A stretch of DNA of 21,542 nucleotides from a virus. The stretch lies in the IMG/VR virus record IMGVR_UViG_3300037807_000783, positions 1-21,542 of that record, one strand, 5' to 3'. Shown piece after piece: positions 6,614 through 21,542 of this stretch (positions are counted from its first letter, which is position 1; each line of letters starts with the position of its first letter). The notes beneath the pieces were generated by a model. That model had not been told where the DNA came from. It saw nothing but the letters and a program-made list of their open reading frames with translations, and did no database searches. The translations under genes and the position numbers were made by a program.

Positions 6614-6637
6614 GGGAGAGGGCTTCGGCTCTCTCCC
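6614..6637 (+). terminator. Strong hairpin with UUCG loop after the capsid gene
   Basis: The arms GGGAGAGGGC and GCTCTCTCCC pair over 10 bp (one G-U pair) around a TTCG loop closed by C-G, an unusually stable RNA loop. Only three T bases follow, so it is a weak intrinsic terminator at best. It may slow transcription after the abundantly needed capsid gene or protect the upstream mRNA end. It lies in the 57-base gap between capsid and the next gene. Confidence 0.55.
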
Positions 6638-12778: not shown

Positions 12779-15386
12779 CAATGTGCGAAGAACTCTCTGG
12801 AGTATTGGTGTCACGGTTGTCGGTTACTATATCATGACGCAAGTGCCGGGACTTGGTGGAATCATTCTTGCGACAGCAACGGTCACTGGACTTGCGTATG
12901 TCGGCAACGAGCTGATGCCATTTGAACAGGAGCTGGCAGAAGGTCATCTCGTCAATAAACAGGGTGCGAATCTTCCCATTCCAATTGTGTATGGAGTGAG
13001 GAGAATCGGTGGAGTGCGAGTTGCCGTTCAAGTCACCGGCGATGACAATGAATATCTGTCTGTCGTTCTGGCGATGTGCGAAGGCGAAGTCGAAGCGATT
13101 GAGTTCTTGAAATATGATGAGCGAGTTGAATCTGGTGATTCGGATTATGGCGACTCGGAGTGGTGGGAAGATTTCGGTGGATATTACACGGAGCATGAAT
13201 TTGGATTTGACGGCGCATATTACACTGTCTGGCACCCGTATGAGGAGTACATCGATGACGGATTCATCTCGTGCAACAAGTATGTCGGCACTGATTCTCA
13301 ATCAGCAGACACTGGACTTGTCGACAGATGGAATGAATGGACAACTGCTCACAAGTTGAGTGGCATCGCATATCTCTCTCTCCGATTCAAATACGATTCC
13401 GACACATGGATTCGTGGAGTGCCGACAGTGACTGGACTGGTCAGTGGTTGCAAGGTCTATGATTTCAGGACAGCGACAAGTGTTGCGTCAAGCAATCCGG
13501 CAGTCATCATTTATGACTATTTAACGAATGACAGATATGGTCGTGGAGTCAACTCCAACTTGATTGACACAGATTCATTCGAAGATTGTGCCAACTATTG
13601 TGACACTGAAGTTGAGCATCCAGATGGCGATGGTGGAACTGTGATGCGACCAATGTACACTTGCAATGCAGTCATGAACACCGGTTCTGATTTCATGACC
13701 AACATGAACAAGCTGTTGACATCCTGTCGAGGAATGCTTGTCTTTTCATCTGGCAAATACAAATTGAAAATGGACAAGCCTGAAGACGCATCATTCGCGT
13801 TCACTGAAGACAATATCACCGGCTCTTGGGAAATACATCTTGGCGACATCAAGAGCCGGTTCAACAGAATCAAAGCACAGTTTGTGAATCCAGTTTCTTG
13901 GCAATCCGACCTGACGGTTGCTGACTCGGAAGCACTTCGAGCCGACGACGATGACCGGTTGCTTGAACGGACACTGGACTTGTCTTGTTGCACTAGTCCG
14001 TACGAAGCGTATATACAGGCAGTGATTGCACTGAATGCAAGTCGACAGCAACTGCGAGCATCGTTCACTGCATTCAGCGAGGGGCTTCAGTGCGAGGTCG
14101 GCGATGTCGTCTCCATCACACACTCGACACCAGAGTGGGACGCAAAAGAATTCAGAGTTTCGGGAATCACCATTCTGTCGTCCGATGAAGTGTCTGTTCA
14201 GGTTCAAGAATATGACGCATCGACATATGAATATGGAGTGATTCAGGAAGTTGATTTGACTCCAAACACGAACCTTCCAGATTCCTTGTCGGTCGAACCA
14301 CCGACAGAACTCACTGTCACCGAGTCGCTATATTCAACAGGCGACAATTCAGGCATCAAGGCGAAGGCGGTGATGACATGGACGGCATCAGCAGATGCAT
14401 TTATTGACCAATATGAGATTCACCACAAGCTGTCAAGCGATGAAGAGTGGTTGGTTGTAGGCAGGACAACCGGCTCGGCAATGGATGTTCTTGAGATTGA
14501 GCCGGCAATGCACAGTTTCAGAGTGAAAGCCATCAACAGAATCGGTGTTTCGTCCGACTGGAATCAGCGAAATCAAGAGATGCTTGGACTGACAGAGCCA
14601 CCAAGCGATGTGACTGATTTCAGTGTTGCAAATCTTGGAGAATTTGCGATGCTGACATGGAGTCCAATGACTGCGAACTCTGACCTTGATGTTCGATATG
14701 GTGGACACTTTGTGATTCGATTTTCAGCAGACACCTCGCCGACTTGGAACAATTCATATCTGGTTGATGAATCGATTGCTGGCAGTCAGAATTCGACAAT
14801 CGTGCCACTTCGGTCTGGTTTTTACTTCATCAAAGCAGTGGACTCGACTGGCAATACATCGCTGAACGCAGTGAGTGTCGACACCGATGGTGCAGAGTTG
14901 GTCGATTACACGATTCTTGGTTCGGAAGTTGCCGAGCATCCAGACTTCGGTGGAACTCTGGTCAACATGACTGAAGACTCTGGTGCTCTCTCGATATCAA
15001 CTGGAGAGACATCTGGAAGTTATACATTCGACACTGGCATCGATGCCGGTTCAGTGCAATCAATGAGACTACAACCAGAAGCATCATTCGAAATCATCAA
15101 TCGCTCAAATGTCATCGACAATCGGACTGAATACATTGACAACTGGCTCGACTTCGATGGTGACGACTCGGATGCATCTGGAAATGTATCATTCCAATTT
15201 CGCAAGACGAATGACAATCCATCGGGAAGTCCTGCATGGAGTTCATGGCAAGCAGTCTTCACCGGAGTCGCGGAATGTCGAGCAGTCGAATTCAGGCTCA
15301 TTGCAAGTGTAGATTCAGTCGATTACGATATAGAAATCACAGAGCTGACCGGAGTGGCTCATCAAATTTCAGCAGGTGGTGGGTAG
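12771..15386 (+). CDS. Tail tip and host-specificity protein, J-like
   Basis: An 871-aa protein forming the central tail tip that meets the host receptor. Residues about 1-45 hold a hydrophobic, Gly-rich stretch (VPGLGGIILATATVTGLAYV). Residues about 60-110 match the J start (NLPIPIVYGVRRIGG, then YLSVVLAMCEGEVEAI). About 215-500 is the hub body (AVIIYDYLTNDRYGRGV, FNRIKAQFVNP, VGDVVSITH). Two fibronectin type III-like domains follow at about 510-602 and 610-694 (PPTELTVTES, HSFRVKAINRIGVSSDW; PPSDVTDFSV, GFYFIKAVDSTGNTS). The last 170 residues form another beta-rich domain. Lambda J has 1132 aa, so this is shorter. The N-terminal hydrophobic stretch resembles parts of lambda gpI, so it may be a small fusion. 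Confidence 0.88.
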   Translation: MSDNVRRTLWSIGVTVVGYYIMTQVPGLGGIILATATVTGLAYVGNELMPFEQELAEGHLVNKQGANLPIPIVYGVRRIGGVRVAVQVTGDDNEYLSVVLAMCEGEVEAIEFLKYDERVESGDSDYGDSEWWEDFGGYYTEHEFGFDGAYYTVWHPYEEYIDDGFISCNKYVGTDSQSADTGLVDRWNEWTTAHKLSGIAYLSLRFKYDSDTWIRGVPTVTGLVSGCKVYDFRTATSVASSNPAVIIYDYLTNDRYGRGVNSNLIDTDSFEDCANYCDTEVEHPDGDGGTVMRPMYTCNAVMNTGSDFMTNMNKLLTSCRGMLVFSSGKYKLKMDKPEDASFAFTEDNITGSWEIHLGDIKSRFNRIKAQFVNPVSWQSDLTVADSEALRADDDDRLLERTLDLSCCTSPYEAYIQAVIALNASRQQLRASFTAFSEGLQCEVGDVVSITHSTPEWDAKEFRVSGITILSSDEVSVQVQEYDASTYEYGVIQEVDLTPNTNLPDSLSVEPPTELTVTESLYSTGDNSGIKAKAVMTWTASADAFIDQYEIHHKLSSDEEWLVVGRTTGSAMDVLEIEPAMHSFRVKAINRIGVSSDWNQRNQEMLGLTEPPSDVTDFSVANLGEFAMLTWSPMTANSDLDVRYGGHFVIRFSADTSPTWNNSYLVDESIAGSQNSTIVPLRSGFYFIKAVDSTGNTSLNAVSVDTDGAELVDYTILGSEVAEHPDFGGTLVNMTEDSGALSISTGETSGSYTFDTGIDAGSVQSMRLQPEASFEIINRSNVIDNRTEYIDNWLDFDGDDSDASGNVSFQFRKTNDNPSGSPAWSSWQAVFTGVAECRAVEFRLIASVDSVDYDIEITELTGVAHQISAGGG

Positions 15387-15388
15387 AA

Positions 15389-16243
15389 ATGACACAACAC
15401 GACTATTCGATAGCAAATGCATCCGGACAGACTGTTCGAAATGACATCAACAATGCACTTGAAGCAATTGTGACTTTGAATGCCGGAGCGACTGAGCCGG
15501 GAACGACATTCGCACATCAACTTTGGCTTGACACAGACAATGGCACTCTGTCGATTCGGAATGCAAGCAACACAACATGGCTTCGTTTGCCGGTTTCGAC
15601 AACAGCGAGTGATTCAACAATTGCAGGTCTGACTGTCAATGGGGCGACCAACTCGACCGGCATCATGAACGCAGATGGAGGAATAACTGTTGCCGGTGGA
15701 AGTCTCGTTGCGACAGTCAGTGCGACTTTCACATCGGATGTGAATTTGCTTGGCGACATCATCAATCCAACTCATCCGGCTTTCAGGGCGACAGCTTCGA
15801 CAACTCAAGTCGTGCCCCTATCCACCGTCACGCAGGTGACGAATCTCGGCGATGAAGAATTCGACCTGAACGGCGATTTCAGTTCAAATGAATTCACTGC
15901 ACCAATTGATGGTGTTTATCATTTTGATGCAAGCATGGTTTTTGAGGACAGAGATTGGACAAGTGTGGATGCATCTGTGTCATTCTGGATTGCCATCTCG
16001 ACAGACGGTGGCTCGACTTGGTCAACACAGAGCGATGATGACAGTATCTGCATAATAAATTCACCTGATGGAACGAGCCAAGATGAACCATTCGTGGCAT
16101 CCACTGTGAGTGGCATCATGAAGCTCGATGAGGATGACATGGTTGCATTATTCACACATGTGACCGACTACGGAGGCTCGGACAAGCGAATCGATTCAGG
16201 CAGTACGGTTCAATTTTGTGGTCACTTAATTTCTGGCATATAA
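15389..16243 (+). CDS. Tail fibre or tip-attached protein with C1q-like C-terminal domain
   Basis: A 284-aa protein. The N-terminal part (HDYSIANASGQTVRNDINNA, then HQLWLDTDNGTLSIRN) is a repeated type in phage tail fibres that attach to the tip. The middle (about 70-130) is Ser/Thr/Ala/Gly rich with a short-strand pattern. Residues about 130-284 look like a C1q/TNF-like jelly roll: an N-terminal FRATASTTQVVPLST strand, EFTAPIDGVYHFDASMVF (the typical 'F-x-A-P-x-x-G-x-Y-x-F' C1q motif) and a last strand STVQFCGHLIS. Such domains form trimers and bind host surface sugars or proteins. It starts three bases after the J-like gene ends, with only a weak SD. Confidence 0.78.
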   Translation: MTQHDYSIANASGQTVRNDINNALEAIVTLNAGATEPGTTFAHQLWLDTDNGTLSIRNASNTTWLRLPVSTTASDSTIAGLTVNGATNSTGIMNADGGITVAGGSLVATVSATFTSDVNLLGDIINPTHPAFRATASTTQVVPLSTVTQVTNLGDEEFDLNGDFSSNEFTAPIDGVYHFDASMVFEDRDWTSVDASVSFWIAISTDGGSTWSTQSDDDSICIINSPDGTSQDEPFVASTVSGIMKLDEDDMVALFTHVTDYGGSDKRIDSGSTVQFCGHLISGI

Positions 16244-16257
16244 CAAGGAGAATGAGG

Positions 16258-16620
16258 ATGAAAAGATTTGGGAGCATATTGATTTTGATGCTCATGATTT
16301 CAACAATGGCGATGGCAGTGATGCCTTTTGCAAAATTCACAACCGAAGGCTCAACAGACTTCAATGTCGCACTGGATAAGTCAAGAAAAGACATTCAGAT
16401 TTTCGCACCAGATGCCGACATCAAGTTCAGTGTTTGGCGATATTATGGCGACGAGTGGAACATCATATATCCGGCATTCAATGTGAACAGTCCGGCAGTG
16501 TGTGACTCTCAATATGTCGCATTTGCCGGAGTGCCATTCAAAATTGTTGACGGTGGAAAAGCCGATGTCATTTGTATTGACAGAACTGATGTGACATCCG
16601 TTCAGGTGATTGCAAAATGA
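16258..16620 (+). CDS. Exported protein of unknown function
   Basis: A 120-aa protein with a clear signal peptide: basic MKR, a hydrophobic core (SILILMLMISTMAMA) and a likely cut after AMA. The mature part, about 100 aa, seems beta-rich (DIQIFAPDADIKFSVWRYYG, VAFAGVPFKIVDGGKADVIC) and has two Cys that might form a disulfide. ATG 16258 is chosen because AAGGAG at 16245-16250 is spaced 7 bases; ATG 16252 would be only one base from it. It lies between tail fibre and lysis genes, where lambdoid phages often carry host-altering cargo genes. The mature part also resembles short beta-sandwich phage proteins. No function is claimed. Confidence 0.72.
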   Translation: MKRFGSILILMLMISTMAMAVMPFAKFTTEGSTDFNVALDKSRKDIQIFAPDADIKFSVWRYYGDEWNIIYPAFNVNSPAVCDSQYVAFAGVPFKIVDGGKADVICIDRTDVTSVQVIAK

Positions 16621-17084
16621 GATATTTGATTGCAATTATTTTGGCGACAGTCGTGTTGCCATTTCTGTGCATAGCAGGGATGCCGGAGATTGCATCACTT
16701 GGAGATAGAGAGAAGTCTGATGGCTTCGTCTCGCCATCCAGTGCGATGCCGGTCATGCGAGCGACATCATACACGTGGAAGTCTGGTGGAGTGAATTGTG
16801 TGTTCACATCCGTCATCTACAATTGCACCGGACGAGTCAAAGTGAAGGTCTACCACGTGACCGGTGCTGTCTGGAAAGAATCTGCATGGAGTTCTGTCGG
16901 AGCTGGCGAAGCAAGCTTCGGATTCAATGACATGATTGTCGGTGATGACTATTCGCAGTTCCAAGCTATATATGATTGCACTGATGGCTCTTGCTTGGAC
17001 AGTGAGTGGACTATGGTGCATCAGGCACAATGGACTCAACCAACGAAGAGACAGCCACCAATCGAAGAGGAGCACGACGAATGA
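16617..17084 (+). CDS. Second exported protein of unknown function
   Basis: A 155-aa protein starting in an ATGA overlap with the exported protein before it. A hydrophobic N-terminus (YLIAIILATVVLPFLCIAG) is a likely signal peptide cut near IAG; the PFLC sequence does not match a good lipobox, so it is probably not a lipoprotein. The mature part has beta-rich segments (ATSYTWKSGGVNCVFTSVIY, RVKVKVYHVTGAVW) and several Cys (VNCVFTSVIYNC, YDCTDGSC) that suggest disulfides outside the cytoplasm. The C-terminal end is acidic. The tight pairing with the gene before suggests they act together. I do not recognise the family. Confidence 0.68.
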   Translation: MRYLIAIILATVVLPFLCIAGMPEIASLGDREKSDGFVSPSSAMPVMRATSYTWKSGGVNCVFTSVIYNCTGRVKVKVYHVTGAVWKESAWSSVGAGEASFGFNDMIVGDDYSQFQAIYDCTDGSCLDSEWTMVHQAQWTQPTKRQPPIEEEHDE

Positions 17085-17326
17085 GCAGTGTGAGGCTAGT
17101 CAGGGAAATCAATGTTGGACATTTGATATCGATATTCGGAATGGTGTTCACTCTGATTGTCTTTCTGGTCAGGACGGACGGCAGGATTGAAACCAACGAG
17201 TTGACGCTTGGACGAGTCATTGAACTGCAAGAGCAGATGATTCGAGATGTCAGTGACCTGAAAGAGTTCAAAATCAGGCAAGAAATCATCACCAACATGG
17301 ACAAGAATCTCTTTGCCGATGAGTGA
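17081..17326 (+). CDS. Small membrane protein with coiled coil, lysis cassette
   Basis: An 81-aa protein. Residues about 13-30 form one membrane segment (GHLISIFGMVFTLIVFLV), followed by a charged helix (TLGRVIELQEQMIRDVSDLK) of coiled-coil type. ATG 17081 has GAGGAG at 17067-17072, 8 bases upstream. It overlaps the exported protein gene by four bases and the endopeptidase gene by 8. A single membrane pass plus a coil at the head of a lysis cassette could be a holin partner, an antiholin or an accessory tethering protein. Bacillus XhlA has a similar mix but in the opposite order. The role is open. Confidence 0.65.
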   Translation: MSSVRLVREINVGHLISIFGMVFTLIVFLVRTDGRIETNELTLGRVIELQEQMIRDVSDLKEFKIRQEIITNMDKNLFADE

Positions 17327-17690
17327 ATATCACTATTTCGCAGACGATGAGTTGACCTGCCGATGTGGATGTGGACTCGGCGCAAGTGCGATGAGCAGGG
17401 CATTCATGTTGAGATTGGAATTCTTACGCAAGGAACTCGGATTCCCATTTCCAGTGACATCTGCAATTCGATGTTCAAAGCACAATGTCGATGTATCATC
17501 GACCGGCAAGAATGGAATTCATACGACGGGCAAAGCTGTCGATATTGCTGTCGATGGTGAGCATAAATATGAGCTAGTGAAACTCGCAATGTTTGCACGA
17601 TTCACCGGCATTGGCATCGGACGCACATTCGTTCATCTCGACATTGGCAGTCCGGGAAAATATCCAAGACCGAGAATTTGGAACTATTGA
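17319..17690 (+). CDS. Endolysin, M15-type peptidoglycan endopeptidase
   Basis: A 123-aa protein of the Peptidase M15 (type 3) family, which cuts peptide bonds in peptidoglycan to lyse the host. Likely zinc ligands are H68 and D75 in GIHTTGKAVDIAV and H106 in FVHLD, with D108 next to it. The segment FPVTSAIRCSKHN is the usual strand and turn before the active site. The N-terminus has a CRCGCG motif common in this family. ATG 17319 overlaps the previous gene by 8 bases; a TTG at 17313 is possible. No signal peptide is seen, so it needs a holin for export. A holin candidate follows. Confidence 0.9.
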   Translation: MSEYHYFADDELTCRCGCGLGASAMSRAFMLRLEFLRKELGFPFPVTSAIRCSKHNVDVSSTGKNGIHTTGKAVDIAVDGEHKYELVKLAMFARFTGIGIGRTFVHLDIGSPGKYPRPRIWNY

Positions 17691-17704
17691 ATGGAGATGG
17701 AAGT

Positions 17705-17881
17705 ATGGAATGGTTGAAAAGCACAAAGTTGATTGCATTCGCAAGTGGCTCGCTGTTGTCGTTTGCAGGATTGATGACTGGCAAAATGAGTGGCAGTGAG
17801 TTCCAACTTGCAATCACGGCAATCACTCTTGCATATATTGCCGGCAAATTTGGTGAGTATAAATATAAAGCTGGTGAGTGA
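17705..17881 (+). CDS. Holin candidate
   Basis: A 58-aa protein with two hydrophobic segments (LIAFASGSLLSFAGLMTG and FQLAITAITLAYIAGKFG) joined by a short loop, plus charged ends (MEWLKSTK at the start, EYKYKAGE at the end). Such small two-pass proteins next to an endolysin are commonly holins, which open the inner membrane at lysis time. ATG 17705 has GGAG at 17693-17696, 8 bases upstream. The gene begins 14 bases after the endolysin and ends in a TGATG overlap with the i-spanin candidate. The call rests on size, topology and place, since holins share little sequence. Confidence 0.7.
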   Translation: MEWLKSTKLIAFASGSLLSFAGLMTGKMSGSEFQLAITAITLAYIAGKFGEYKYKAGE

Positions 17882-18147
17882 TGGAGCTGTTGAGAGAGCT
17901 GTTGCCATTTCTGGCAGTTGCAGTCGTTGCATTTCTATTTGGGCGACCAACAAAGCAAGACAAGCATCTGTTCGAGATGCAGGATAAAATTGACAGAGAG
18001 CGAAGAGAGAAGATTGATGCAATTGCTGAAGCAAAAAAGCAGAAACTGCTCCGGGAGAATCTTGAGAACAGCTATCGCTCTTTATCTGCTCGCATCGAAT
18101 CCCTGCTTCGCAGGGCAGACGCAAAAGATGACGAGAGCATTCACTGA
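17881..18147 (+). CDS. i-spanin candidate, Rz-like
   Basis: An 88-aa protein with an N-terminal membrane anchor (LLPFLAVAVVAFLFG, residues about 7-21) and then a long charged helix rich in Lys, Glu, Arg and Asp (KIDRERREKIDAIAEAKKQK) that likely forms a periplasmic coiled coil. This is the topology of lambda Rz, which links the inner membrane to the outer membrane and fuses them in the last step of lysis. It is shorter than Rz (153 aa). It starts in a TGATG overlap with the holin candidate. Its 3' half overlaps another gene in a different frame, as Rz and Rz1 do in lambda. Confidence 0.7.
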   Translation: MELLRELLPFLAVAVVAFLFGRPTKQDKHLFEMQDKIDRERREKIDAIAEAKKQKLLRENLENSYRSLSARIESLLRRADAKDDESIH

Positions 18148-18376
18148 TTCGACTTCAGTTTCTGTGATAGTTGGGTACGCAGAGCAACTTGAACTTAACA
18201 TCAAAATGCTTGAAATCGATTGCGAATCACAGGCACTCGCTGACAGTCTTGAGATTGATATGTTGCGAGACCGAATCAAGAAATCTGAACCAACACTACT
18301 CGACAAGGTGATGTCTGATGGTCGAGTCTGGTTCATCGTTGGAGCAGTCGTTGGGATGCAATCTCGCAAGTGGTGA
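18017..18376 (+). CDS. Second spanin candidate overlapping the i-spanin gene, with C-terminal membrane segment
   Basis: A 119-aa protein in a different frame from the i-spanin gene, overlapping its last 131 bases. It has a signal-like segment (RTAIALYLLASNPCFAGQTQ), a helical middle (ADSLEIDMLRDRIKKSEPTL) and a C-terminal hydrophobic end (VWFIVGAVVGMQ). The Cys in SNPC is not in a standard lipobox. Rz1-type o-spanins are small lipoproteins without a C-terminal membrane segment, while u-spanins of the T1 type have both an outer-membrane lipid anchor and a C-terminal membrane segment, so this one is between the two. The start is uncertain: ATG 18017, TTG 18062 with GGGAG at 18053-18057, or ATG 18129 without the signal. 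Confidence 0.6.
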   Translation: MQLLKQKSRNCSGRILRTAIALYLLASNPCFAGQTQKMTRAFTDSTSVSVIVGYAEQLELNIKMLEIDCESQALADSLEIDMLRDRIKKSEPTLLDKVMSDGRVWFIVGAVVGMQSRKW

Positions 18377-18575
18377 TTCCTCCAGCAGGGTTTCTTTGGT
18401 GTGATTTTCTTAATTTCAGAAAAATATTCCAGAACATAAGTTCAACAACCACAACAACATCCGAATTGTATGCATATCATTAGGAATGTGTGCTTGCTGT
18501 CTCTCCTTAAAAGTGCGATACTTCTGGAGTGGTCAATATCGACTGCATCGCAATTTTGAACTGGGAGGTTCTGCA
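18377..18575. other. AT-rich gap between lysis and early genes
   Basis: This is the longest gap inside the window after the first one. Its first part (about 18390-18480) is rich in A and T. A frame with ATG 18486 runs through into the next gene, but a better start lies at 18576. A weak promoter-like pair is noted separately. No clear terminator with a T-run was seen. The break in the otherwise tight gene packing fits the border between the late and early transcription regions. Confidence 0.5.
18494..18522 (+). promoter_or_regulatory. Possible sigma-70-like promoter
   Basis: TTGCTG (18494-18499) and GATACT (18517-18522) are spaced by 17 bases. They match the usual hexamers at 3 and 4 of 6 positions. 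A start near 18529 would leave a leader of about 45 bases before ATG 18576 and would exclude the upstream ATG 18486. The match is modest. Confidence 0.25.
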
Positions 18576-19151
18576 ATGACAACATCAAACACAAACATCA
18601 CACTGACAACAAAAGAACTCACAGGAGGAGATAGAATGAAAAAGAAACAATGTAAACATGTCATCGGGTTTTATGATGATGACGAAACCAGAGTTGAACT
18701 AATTGACGGCAATACCTACAGTGTCGTTGTGTTCGATGGTGACAGTAATTTTACCAAGTTTGAATATTGCCCACACTGCGGAGCTACTCTTACTCTGGAT
18801 GAGACTGAAGTCGAAAAGATACACGATGTCACAAGCGATGCACTTCAAAGAGTAGAGCCATCACTGCCAGTGCCAGCATCGATGCCAACTTTGTCATCCA
18901 CAAGTCTCAACATCGATGGCTATTTCTATGTCTTGGACATTGAAAAGCAGTCATTCGCTATCCCGGCACTGCCGGTCGGCAGAGTCAATCACCGGGTTGA
19001 ACTGTTGCGAGACGAAAATGGCGACTATGCAGTGAAAACAGGTCGGACTGATTGCTTGCCACTAGGCAGACAGAGATGCACTCAACATTGCTTCACATTG
19101 CATGGTGCATTGAGTGATGCAGTGGAGTGGTACGCTTCGGAATCGCTATAA
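18576..19151 (+). CDS. Hypothetical early protein with a possible zinc-binding site
   Basis: A 191-aa protein of unknown family. Near the start are a CKHVIGFYDDDE segment and a YCPHCGATL segment, together a likely Cys/His zinc site (C-x-H and C-x-x-C). A Pro/Ser-rich linker follows at about 90-115, then a second domain (DGYFYVLDIEKQSFAIPALP, HRVELLRDENGDYAVKTG). Three in-frame starts exist. ATG 18576 has GGGAGG about 9 bases upstream and begins with MTTSNTNIT, shared with the next gene. ATG 18636 has the strongest SD (AGGAGG at 18623-18628 with GGAG up to 18630) and would remove the shared motif. ATG 18486 has no good SD. Either of the first two could be used. Confidence 0.68.
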   Translation: MTTSNTNITLTTKELTGGDRMKKKQCKHVIGFYDDDETRVELIDGNTYSVVVFDGDSNFTKFEYCPHCGATLTLDETEVEKIHDVTSDALQRVEPSLPVPASMPTLSSTSLNIDGYFYVLDIEKQSFAIPALPVGRVNHRVELLRDENGDYAVKTGRTDCLPLGRQRCTQHCFTLHGALSDAVEWYASESL

Positions 19152-19157
19152 TTAAGC

Positions 19158-19210
19158 ACCGGGAGAGTTTCGGCTCTCCCATCACTCAACAGGGAGAGAA
19201 CAATGACAAC
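19158..19210 (+). repeat. 53-bp direct repeat, copy 1, with hairpin and copied SD
   Basis: Identical base for base to 19795-19847. It includes a hairpin (GGGAGAG at 19161-19167 and CTCTCCC at 19174-19180 around TTTCGG), an 11-base spacer, a second GGGAGAG at 19192-19198 that serves as the SD, and ATG 19203 with the codons ACA AC. Because both GGGAGAG copies can pair with the same CTCTCCC, two exclusive folds are possible. It is the leader of the gene that starts at 19203. Confidence 0.9.
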
Positions 19211-19787
19211 ATCGAACACAAACATCACAGTCAAGCTAGTGAAGAGATATGATGGTGCTTATGACATCAAGTGCGAAGAGCATCCAGAGCTGGCATTGGT
19301 GGCTCGCAAAGAGTGCATGAGCATGGGCATGGCATACTACATTTATACAGATGACATGTACACAAAGAAGTCAACCATTGACTCCTTCTTCACACTGCAA
19401 GATTTGAGAGAAGAGTTGGTCGAAATTATCAAGGCACACATCGACAGCAATCCATCTCCAGTCGCACCATCTCCAGTTGACTCAATTCCTGCATCCGAAG
19501 AAGAGTATCTCGCCATTGCAGAATCCAATGGATATGACATCCACGATGAATGTGTGTGCAATGGAAGCTCATGGCACAGAATCACCAAAGTGCCTATGCA
19601 AGCAACCAGAGACTCGTGGACAGAGTCAGAGTGGATGAAGTGGATTGATGTTCATGCAAATGGACATCTTCAGGATGTCATTGACTTGAAGCTGTCACTG
19701 CGAAGAATGGTTGCCAAAATTGACTACAATCATCATGAACTAGATAGCATGACCGTGGCAATCATTCAGGTTGCCACGAACACTTGA
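19203..19787 (+). CDS. Hypothetical early protein
   Basis: A 194-aa protein of unknown family. It starts MTTSNTNIT like the gene before. The N-terminal part (VKLVKRYDGAYDIKCEEHPE, LALVARKEC) seems beta-rich, then a helical part (LQDLREELVEIIKAHI), a Pro/Ser/Val linker (NPSPVAPSPVDSIP), and a C-terminal part (YDIHDECVCNGSSWHRITKV, then TESEWMKWID) with Cys, His and Trp residues. Its SD (GGGAG at 19192-19196, spaced 6) lies within the 53-bp repeat. No nuclease or DNA-binding motif is clear. The place before the recombination genes suggests an early function. The 3' end of the gene holds an 8-bp inverted repeat. Confidence 0.7.
   Translation: MTTSNTNITVKLVKRYDGAYDIKCEEHPELALVARKECMSMGMAYYIYTDDMYTKKSTIDSFFTLQDLREELVEIIKAHIDSNPSPVAPSPVDSIPASEEEYLAIAESNGYDIHDECVCNGSSWHRITKVPMQATRDSWTESEWMKWIDVHANGHLQDVIDLKLSLRRMVAKIDYNHHELDSMTVAIIQVATNT
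19754..19778 (+). repeat. 8-bp inverted repeat at the end of the hypothetical gene
   Basis: CGTGGCAA at 19754-19761 and TTGCCACG at 19771-19778 pair perfectly around a 9-base loop. It lies in the last codons of the 19203 gene, 17 bases before the next direct repeat copy. There is no T-run after it, so it is not a standard terminator. It could mark an mRNA end or be chance. Confidence 0.4.
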
Positions 19788-19794
19788 ATCAGGA

Positions 19795-19847
19795 ACCGGG
19801 AGAGTTTCGGCTCTCCCATCACTCAACAGGGAGAGAACAATGACAAC
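19795..19847 (+). repeat. 53-bp direct repeat, copy 2, with hairpin and copied SD
   Basis: Second perfect copy of the repeat, 637 bases after the first. The hairpin arms are at 19798-19804 and 19811-19817, the SD copy GGGAGAG is at 19829-19835, and ATG 19840 starts the exonuclease gene. The copies stop matching right after the first three bases of codon 2 and two more bases. It sets the start and likely the control of the exonuclease gene. Confidence 0.9.
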
Positions 19848-20784
19848 CTATCATCCAGAAAAAAACAAGTCGGAATGGCTTGTCCAACGAAAACGGTCAA
19901 TTGGTGGAAGCGAATCGAGTGCGATACTTGGTTGCGACCAATACCGAAGCCCACTCGACATCTACATCGACAAGACAACCGAACGTGTCGATGAGATAAA
20001 CAATGGCTACATGTGGCTTGGCAATGTGCTTGAAGAGCCAATTGCCGAGCGATATATGGACGAGACTGGTCGCAAAATGCGAAGGCAACCATTCAAAGTC
20101 CATCCTGATTTTCCATTCATGTCATGCACGCTAGACCGGCAGATTGTCGGTGATGAGCGAGGTGTGGGGGTTTGGGAGTGCAAGACTGCATCGCCATATT
20201 TGTTTCGGGATATGAAGTTGAATGGACTGCCGGAGAAATACATCATTCAAGTTCAACACAACATGTGTGTCTGGAATTACAAGTGGGGTGCGATTTGTGT
20301 GCTGAATCGAGACACTGGCGAGATGATTCACTTCGACATCGACAGAGATGATGAGCTCATCTCTGTGATTGTCGAAAAGCTCGGTCTGTTTTGGCATGGT
20401 CACATCGTGCCGAGAATCGCTCCAGAGCCAATTGCAGTCAAGGTCGTCAAGTTGCCACCGGTTGGTGGAGAAATCACCGTCATCAACAATGACGACTGGT
20501 TTGATGCCTGCTCTGTATATAGCGAAGCAAAGGCACTCCAGTCTGATGCAAAGATGATGATGGATGTGGCAAAAGCGAAAATCATCGAACACATGGATGC
20601 AAGTGACGCATCAACATCTGAAGGCTCTGGAATGCGATTCTATTACAAGCCGAATAAGGGCAGGTTGACGACAGACATGAAGAAACTGCAAGCTGACAAT
20701 CCAGACATCAACCTGGATGAGTATCAAAACAGAGGCAGTGACTTCATGTCACTGCGAGCCTTTGAGATTGGAGACAGCAAATGA
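19840..20784 (+). CDS. YqaJ-type phage recombination exonuclease
   Basis: A 314-aa protein of the YqaJ/lambda exonuclease-like nuclease fold. It would chew one strand of double-stranded DNA ends to give single strands for annealing. Seen: GGSESSAILG at 22-31, the typical start of the fold; G61 and E65/E66 in LGNVLEEPIAERY; D99 in CTLDRQI; E113 and K115 in VWECKTA; and Q137/Q139 in YIIQVQHNM. These are the usual metal-binding and catalytic positions. The C-terminal third has a helix (YSEAKALQSDAKMMMDVAKA) common in this family. ATG 19840 is set by the SD in the direct repeat. The stop overlaps the start of the annealing protein gene (ATGA). Confidence 0.92.
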   Translation: MTTYHPEKNKSEWLVQRKRSIGGSESSAILGCDQYRSPLDIYIDKTTERVDEINNGYMWLGNVLEEPIAERYMDETGRKMRRQPFKVHPDFPFMSCTLDRQIVGDERGVGVWECKTASPYLFRDMKLNGLPEKYIIQVQHNMCVWNYKWGAICVLNRDTGEMIHFDIDRDDELISVIVEKLGLFWHGHIVPRIAPEPIAVKVVKLPPVGGEITVINNDDWFDACSVYSEAKALQSDAKMMMDVAKAKIIEHMDASDASTSEGSGMRFYYKPNKGRLTTDMKKLQADNPDINLDEYQNRGSDFMSLRAFEIGDSK

Positions 20785-21464
20785 GCGACACAAAAGAGGT
20801 GATGCCAATTTTGGCAGACATGGCGAAACAGCATGGGATGGATGTTGGCAACTTCTGGTCGACAATGCAGTCGACAGTTCTGCCGAATGCAACTCAAGAG
20901 CAAGCATTGGCATTCCTGACTGTTTGCCGAGAATACAAATTGAATCCACTTATCAAAGAGGTGTATGCCTTCCCATCTCGTGGTGGAATTCAACCAATCG
21001 TTGGAGTCGATGGATGGCTCGCAATTGCGAATCGGCAACCACAGTTCGATGGACTTGAGACTGAAGAAATCAACGACGCTGAAGGCAATCTGATTGCAAT
21101 CAAAGCAACCATCTGGCGAAGCGACAGAAAGCATCCGACAACAGCAACTGAACGAATGAGTGAGTGTGTCAGACCGACTCCAATCTGGACGAAATATCCA
21201 TGCAGGATGTTGACCAACAAGGCAATCATTCAGGCAATCAGAAGGGCATTCTCAATCTCTGGAATCTGTGACCCGGACGAAGGCGAAAGAATTGCAGAGT
21301 GTCAAAGTGTGGAGACTGTCGACATTGCTGAAGCAACCAAGCTGAAAATGGATGCAATCAAATCGAGAATCACATATGATGATTCTGATTGCATCGATGT
21401 CGAGGATGTCATGGAGGACGAACTCGGCAAGGCAAGTGAGTCAGGAGATTCCTCCCACTCTTGA
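20781..21464 (+). CDS. Single-strand annealing protein, RecT/Bet family
   Basis: A 227-aa protein that would anneal complementary single strands made by the exonuclease. The landmark region is ALAFLTVCREYKLNPLIKEV, then YAFPSRGGIQPIVGVDGWLA, then RQPQFDGLE, the typical core of Bet/RecT proteins. Further on, CRMLTNKAIIQAIRRAF fits the family helix that follows. The C-terminal tail is acidic (DDSDCIDVEDVMEDELG) and may bind host single-strand binding protein or other partners, as acidic tails often do. It is a little shorter than lambda Beta (261 aa). It overlaps the exonuclease gene by four bases, which ties the pair into one operon. Confidence 0.93.
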   Translation: MSDTKEVMPILADMAKQHGMDVGNFWSTMQSTVLPNATQEQALAFLTVCREYKLNPLIKEVYAFPSRGGIQPIVGVDGWLAIANRQPQFDGLETEEINDAEGNLIAIKATIWRSDRKHPTTATERMSECVRPTPIWTKYPCRMLTNKAIIQAIRRAFSISGICDPDEGERIAECQSVETVDIAEATKLKMDAIKSRITYDDSDCIDVEDVMEDELGKASESGDSSHS

Positions 21465-21483
21465 TTCACTTGCTGACAATCAC

Positions 21484-21542
21484 GGTGGCGAGAATCTATC
21501 GTTTTGAGAATGACATCCATATTGAATTCTCATCTCGCCACC
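21484..21542 (+). repeat. Large nested inverted repeat at the right edge
   Basis: GGTGGCGAGA (21484-21493) pairs perfectly with TCTCGCCACC (21533-21542). Inside it, TGAGAAT (21505-21511) pairs with ATTCTCA (21526-21532), which sits directly beside the outer arm. The result is a two-part stem with an 11-base bulge on the 5' side and a 14-base loop. It starts 20 bases after the annealing protein gene. The window ends exactly at the outer arm, so further pairing cannot be seen. Confidence 0.6.

Follow-up and report, generated by a model that had tools for sequence, protein, structure and literature searches.

The right end of this virus record raises the question of why two adjacent, unrelated genes are preceded by the same leader, and whether its hairpin serves as a regulatory device or was simply copied along with the signals for translation. 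A preliminary description had proposed a compact RNA switch or a module that moves between genes. We analysed the whole stretch of 21,542 nucleotides (the window) together with related records. The explanation that we favour, to which we assign a probability of roughly 0.58, is that the leader is an ordinary intercistronic stem-loop with a ribosome-binding site (RBS), duplicated as a cassette, in which the stem-loop is a probable stabiliser or insulator.

The window encodes a gpA-type terminase, a lambda-type portal and an M15 peptidase (Pfam), as well as a major head gene (PHROG), and its source virus is a marine-type tailed phage. Based on the terminase, the nearest named phages are the CRP-822-type roseophages (PMC12629253), at 49–52% identity, and TerL reached at most 57% identity to relatives in an IMG/VR terminase search. 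At the right end of the record, an unnamed gene is followed by an orphan, a YqaJ/RecE-like exonuclease and a RecT/Bet-like protein (Table 1). The preliminary description called the genes behind the repeats early, which is reasonable to infer from the YqaJ exonuclease and RecT found there. No match to the orphan was found in Pfam, PHROG or by phage tblastn, window DNA from 15000 to 21542 matched none of the named phages, and the exonuclease as query retrieved no close relatives; YqaJ was found in 2 of 21 related records. The 21.5-kb record is probably a fragment without most of the non-structural half.

Direct reading of the sequence and a repeat search confirmed two perfect copies of the leader in front of differing genes. 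The copies diverge at the very next base on either side of the 53-base identity, which includes the first 8 coding bases and then ends abruptly. Within the window, no other sequence of at least 20 bases is repeated exactly, and the genes behind the pair, the orphan and the exonuclease, are unrelated. Each leader is composed of the upstream stop codon, 9–10 nt, GGGAGAG-U-UUCG-G-CTCTCCC, 11 nt, GGGAGAG, AACA and ATGACAAC. The order is thus arm 1, loop, arm 2, spacer, arm 3 (the SD) and ATG, with arm 2 complementary to both arm 1 and arm 3. The arms of the hairpin are those originally described, whereas the proposed 7-bp stem with a 6-nt loop is better drawn as an 8-bp stem with a UUCG tetraloop and a U-G closing pair. 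In copy 1 the hairpin starts 9 nt past the TAA of the preceding ORF, with no U-tract behind it. Located 9–10 nt after a stop codon and 22 nt before an ATG, the leader hairpin has the placement of an intercistronic stem-loop. Apart from the two leaders, the window has no perfect copy of the inverted repeat GGGAGAG-N6-CTCTCCC; with as many as 3 mismatches allowed, a scan found 4 matches versus 0.46 expected from shuffles. In 73-nt folds, copy 1 had a z-score of -3.2 and copy 2 one of -1.8.

Table 1. Features of the window discussed in the text.
Feature	Coordinates	Strand	Basis or remark
Leader copy 1 (53 bp): hairpin, spacer, SD and ATGACAAC	19158–19210	+	Same letters as copy 2
Leader copy 2 (53 bp)	19795–19847	+	Same letters as copy 1
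Hairpin, copy 1: arm 1 19161–19167 GGGAGAG, UUCG loop, arm 2 19174–19180 CTCTCCC	19161–19180	+	Fold
Hairpin, copy 2	19798–19817	+	Fold; starts 10 nt past the TGA of the orphan ORF
Arm 3/SD GGGAGAG, copy 1, 4 nt before ATG 19203	19192–19198	+	Sequence
Arm 3/SD, copy 2, 4 nt before ATG 19840	19829–19835	+	Sequence
Third hairpin, GGGAGAGGGC-TTCG-GCTCTCTCCC	6614–6637	+	Pattern scan, fold
Segment near gene start, common with 19201–19229 (28/29 bases)	18574–18602	+	Repeat search; no hairpin upstream
Orphan ORF, 194 aa; leader copies on both sides	19203–19787	+	No database match
YqaJ/RecE-like recombination exonuclease gene	19840–20784	+	PF09588 E 3.5e-25; phrog_434 E 4.2e-60
RecT/Bet-like annealing protein gene	20781–21464	+	PF03837 E 3.7e-23; phrog_252

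The two pairings open to arm 2 have predicted energies of -14.2 kcal/mol (arm 1:arm 2) and -11.8 kcal/mol (arm 2:arm 3), both being model values in which the UUCG loop with its U-G closing pair may be mis-scored. In the fold of the 53-mer the respective probabilities were 0.78 and 0.22, and that of arm 1:arm 2 lay between 0.67 and 1.00 over every length and temperature tried. With longer flanks the hairpin probability was 0.84–1.00 in copy 1 and 0.69–0.80 in copy 2. The SD-free hairpin was thus preferred about 2–4:1 in short contexts, and more so in the longer copy 1 contexts; the arm 2:arm 3 population amounted to 19–33% in all copy 2 contexts and in the shortest copy 1 context, and to 0–16% in the longer copy 1 contexts. 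The findpath saddle was at -3.5 kcal/mol, about 11 kcal/mol over the arm 1:arm 2 hairpin, and this hairpin is complete prior to the transcription of arm 3. RNA folding therefore bore out the mutually exclusive pairings as physically possible, with both helices populated in the predictions, and the SD-free fold is the predicted default.

These two structures are the basis of the proposed RNA switch, in which arm 2 would toggle by strand displacement between arm 1 (SD free) and arm 3 (SD hidden), driven by a protein, by a ribosome that terminates at the stop codon upstream, or by folding speed. Both helices are perfect, the competing 7-base arms are identical, and three-arm leaders exist in other phages. 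However, the hairpin that leaves the SD free is both the first to form and the favoured one, no sensor domain was seen, Rfam gave 0 hits above the gathering score for the window (those listed were far under threshold), and SD pairing did not recur in the comparisons described below. We consider such a switch quite improbable. Very unlikely in our estimate is its minimal, ligand-free form, a translational toggle copied onto two genes, where near-isoenergetic strand displacement decides which of two identical arms pairs with their one complement; if true, the orphan gene and the recombination exonuclease would answer to the same signal.

A drawing of two alternative RNA structures can be tested by which of the pairings recurs in the same genomic slot of relatives. 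A third hairpin of the leader type, with similar arms and missed by the preliminary description, lies between the major capsid gene, whose stop is 14 nt before it, and the next small gene, whose ATG is 19 nt on (Table 1). We compared this capsid slot in 80 IMG/VR loci found by terminase, three roseophages and the window, of which 39 had a readable head-gene end. A hairpin of at least 6 bp, then a start codon, was present in 30 distinct cases among these 39, and 29 of the 30 stems had at least 7 bp; stops of other long ORFs gave a background of 52/659 (8%). Most of the 9 left-out loci seem, by eye, to have a hairpin missed by the strict filter. The hairpins lie at medians of 7.5 nt after the stop and 19.5 nt before the start, contain TTCG in 14/30 cases and are in several instances followed by a U-tract; their sequences vary widely while shape and position persist. 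Complementarity between hairpin and SD averaged 4.03 bp versus 3.88 in swapped pairs (p 0.15), and 4.11 versus 4.07 (p 0.45) in a smaller first set. Judging from these sequences, the phage group keeps a stem-loop in the capsid slot without recurrent SD pairing. The conserved post-capsid hairpin is the firmer general result of this analysis, and the window leaders would belong to the same class by shape and position rather than by shown homology.

Two other features of the capsid slot were observed. In CRP-811 (L136, 25490–25540, - strand), the loop region CTTCTCCAG of the post-capsid hairpin shows perfect 9-base complementarity to the SD (CTGGAGAAG) that serves the following gene. In L190, L205 and L216, the gap between the capsid gene and the next gene contains, behind the G-rich hairpin, a second one (TTGAA-type and TTCAA-type arms), whose changes among the three loci look paired by eye.

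The exact 20-base hairpin of the leaders was also identified in at least 119 IMG/VR contigs. Among the matches listed (120 occurrences), 59 precede TAAATA, 40 have a U-tract and 21 have other contexts, and in none of these 120 does GGGAGAG or GGAGAG occur within 40 nt downstream. Because the SD partner is missing behind these listed occurrences, the hairpin appears to be a popular phage stem-loop to which that partner does not belong. The claim of a compact switch thus gains no support from recurrence: the arm 1/arm 2 pair is found again in the capsid slot and in these contigs, whereas the arm 2–SD pairing is not. In L003, L006, L008, L014 and ~55 other loci, the hairpin immediately precedes the conserved gene start TAAATACTTGTATGAAAGC...; these contigs are presumably T4-like phages, and TAAATA with the start codon behind the 59 occurrences looks like a T4-type late promoter.

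The 40 occurrences with a U-tract are terminator-like in sequence. Together with the several U-tracts of the capsid slot, they agree with a hairpin that derives from an intrinsic terminator and would act as an attenuator at which transcription pauses or partly terminates ahead of each gene. However, the window copies continue with ATCACTCAACA (ATCACTCAAC) and are absent from the terminator scan list, and since neither leader site has a U-tract, the hairpin is not an intrinsic terminator there. We regard such an attenuator or terminator remnant as distinctly unlikely.

The third arm is an exact repeat of arm 1 over 7 bases. Swapped hairpin/SD pairs reached at least 7 bp in 4/870 cases, and for a single pre-chosen pair the match would be a coincidence of about 0.5%; it is nevertheless weak evidence because the leader was picked for that match and phage genomes offer many hairpin/start pairs. 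A scan for the three-arm pattern returned 12 contigs (~9 distinct) versus 4 with a rearranged third arm, and an ATG lies just downstream in 4 of the 12 and in none of the 4 controls. We treat this excess as a lead only, and the four non-window three-arm contigs, which are unrelated to it, having been fetched by the same pattern, do not count as independent evidence in the later generic scan. Two of the leaders, in L132 (4030–4095, of the gene preceding a helicase-like gene) and L133 (4172–4240, - strand, of a small-terminase-like gene), contain pairings of 15–16 bp over both SD and ATG, which are predicted to fold so and to compete with a shorter upstream hairpin. On these predictions they are better switch candidates than the window leaders, and they would keep the idea of an SD-hiding leader alive in general, though not for the window phage. 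A T7-like promoter (GGGAGA start as in T7) was considered for the window and rejected by eye, as the two copies have different bases ahead of arm 1 and arm 3 is preceded by a poor match; the idea may apply to L132.

Searches for the leader itself returned no relatives carrying the 53-bp element: the exact 38-base leader was not found in IMG/VR, nor hairpin plus third arm in the genome collection, nor repeated hairpin-leaders in 24 related records (~620 kb), and named phages gave weak pieces only, over the hairpin part. The two copies are one evolutionary observation. In G002, the record of L139, a start-associated repeat around GGGAGAAGAAAGATGGATGA has three copies, at positions of about 2, 345 and 987.

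Start-proximal repetition within the window extends further than the preliminary description noticed. The first 27 coding bases of the orphan match those of the preceding gene in all but one position, and three consecutive ORFs can start with MTT. The sequence near the start is thus common to three consecutive genes, and the whole hairpin leader is present at two only. This distribution bears on the possibility that a phage or host RNA-binding protein binds the UUCG hairpin beside the SD, bringing the orphan and the exonuclease under joint control as a small post-transcriptional regulon. Selection for a common regulator would fit a letter-identical element, including spacer and SD, on two different genes, but recent duplication is an equally good explanation of the identity, the start-proximal copy at 18574 comes without the hairpin, and the window yielded no recognisable candidate for an RNA-binding regulator. 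We consider this protein operator unlikely.

The duplicated cassette accommodates these observations as follows. Hairpin, RBS and start would have been copied as one unit before two adjacent genes, by recent duplication or gene conversion and plausibly through the YqaJ/RecT annealing system of the phage itself; duplication of the leader as a cassette leaves direct repeats flanking the orphan gene, which resembles an inserted cassette. This much of the module proposal in the preliminary description was upheld: two perfect copies have unrelated flanks and one orphan ORF between them, and the adjoining YqaJ/RecT pair could act on the repeats. That the copies enclose a gene lacking known relatives, beside a two-component recombination system, agrees with an insertion or duplication that arose through recombination at the leader. 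Upon transcription, the arm 1:arm 2 hairpin would form just past the upstream stop codon, and the SD would lie where pairing ahead of the ATG is weak or absent, so that translation is probably on by default. The stem-loop probably shields the end of the upstream message from 3'–5' decay and separates the two cistrons. The leader would then be a small, clear case of a hairpin and RBS module copied between neighbouring phage genes, with the copying possibly done by the recombination genes that adjoin it.

Among known systems, the nearest literature analogue is provided by the SAS/ESAS repeats of cluster K mycobacteriophages. SAS is a 13-mer (GGGATAGGAGCCC) with 11–19 copies per genome and unproven function; ESAS consists of imperfect 17-bp inverted repeats, for which its authors see little support as mRNA hairpins. 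SAS/ESAS and the window leader are alike in that a repeated sequence carries the SD shortly upstream of the ATG at several unrelated non-structural genes and is directly preceded, in a subset of SAS, by an inverted repeat. In contrast, the window leader has a perfect 7–8 bp hairpin and a different sequence, CAACAGGGAGAGAACA, where SAS is defined by its 13-mer with up to 2 mismatches 3–7 bp before ATG; it is present in two copies in 21.5 kb of a probably partial record.

Hairpins of the C(UUCG)G type between genes of T4-like phages are reportedly very stable (Tuerk et al., 1988). The window hairpin is likewise a UUCG-loop hairpin between tailed-phage genes, but its closing pair is U-G and the identical leader serves two genes. 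In T4-type late genes such as lysozyme, the SD is hidden in a hairpin of early transcripts, and hiding is the default in long transcripts. The window SD can also be hidden through upstream pairing, whereas the fold preferred in the window leaves it free, and no late promoter was seen between the arms. The capsid-slot hairpins of CRP-822-type roseophages have a similar stop-hairpin-RBS geometry and mostly G-rich/C-rich arms; unlike the window leaders, they occur at different genes and usually have a CTTCTT or T-rich tail.

Further hairpins were noted around the orphan and recombination genes. Two fall within the last codons of the orphan (19754–19778, CGTGGCAATCATTCAGGTTGCCACG) and exonuclease (20735–20755, GCAGTGACTTCATGTCACTGC) genes. 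At the end of the record, 3' of recT, an inverted repeat GGTGGCGAGAAT ... ATTCTCATCTCGCCACC (21467–21542) is a possible end-of-operon hairpin.
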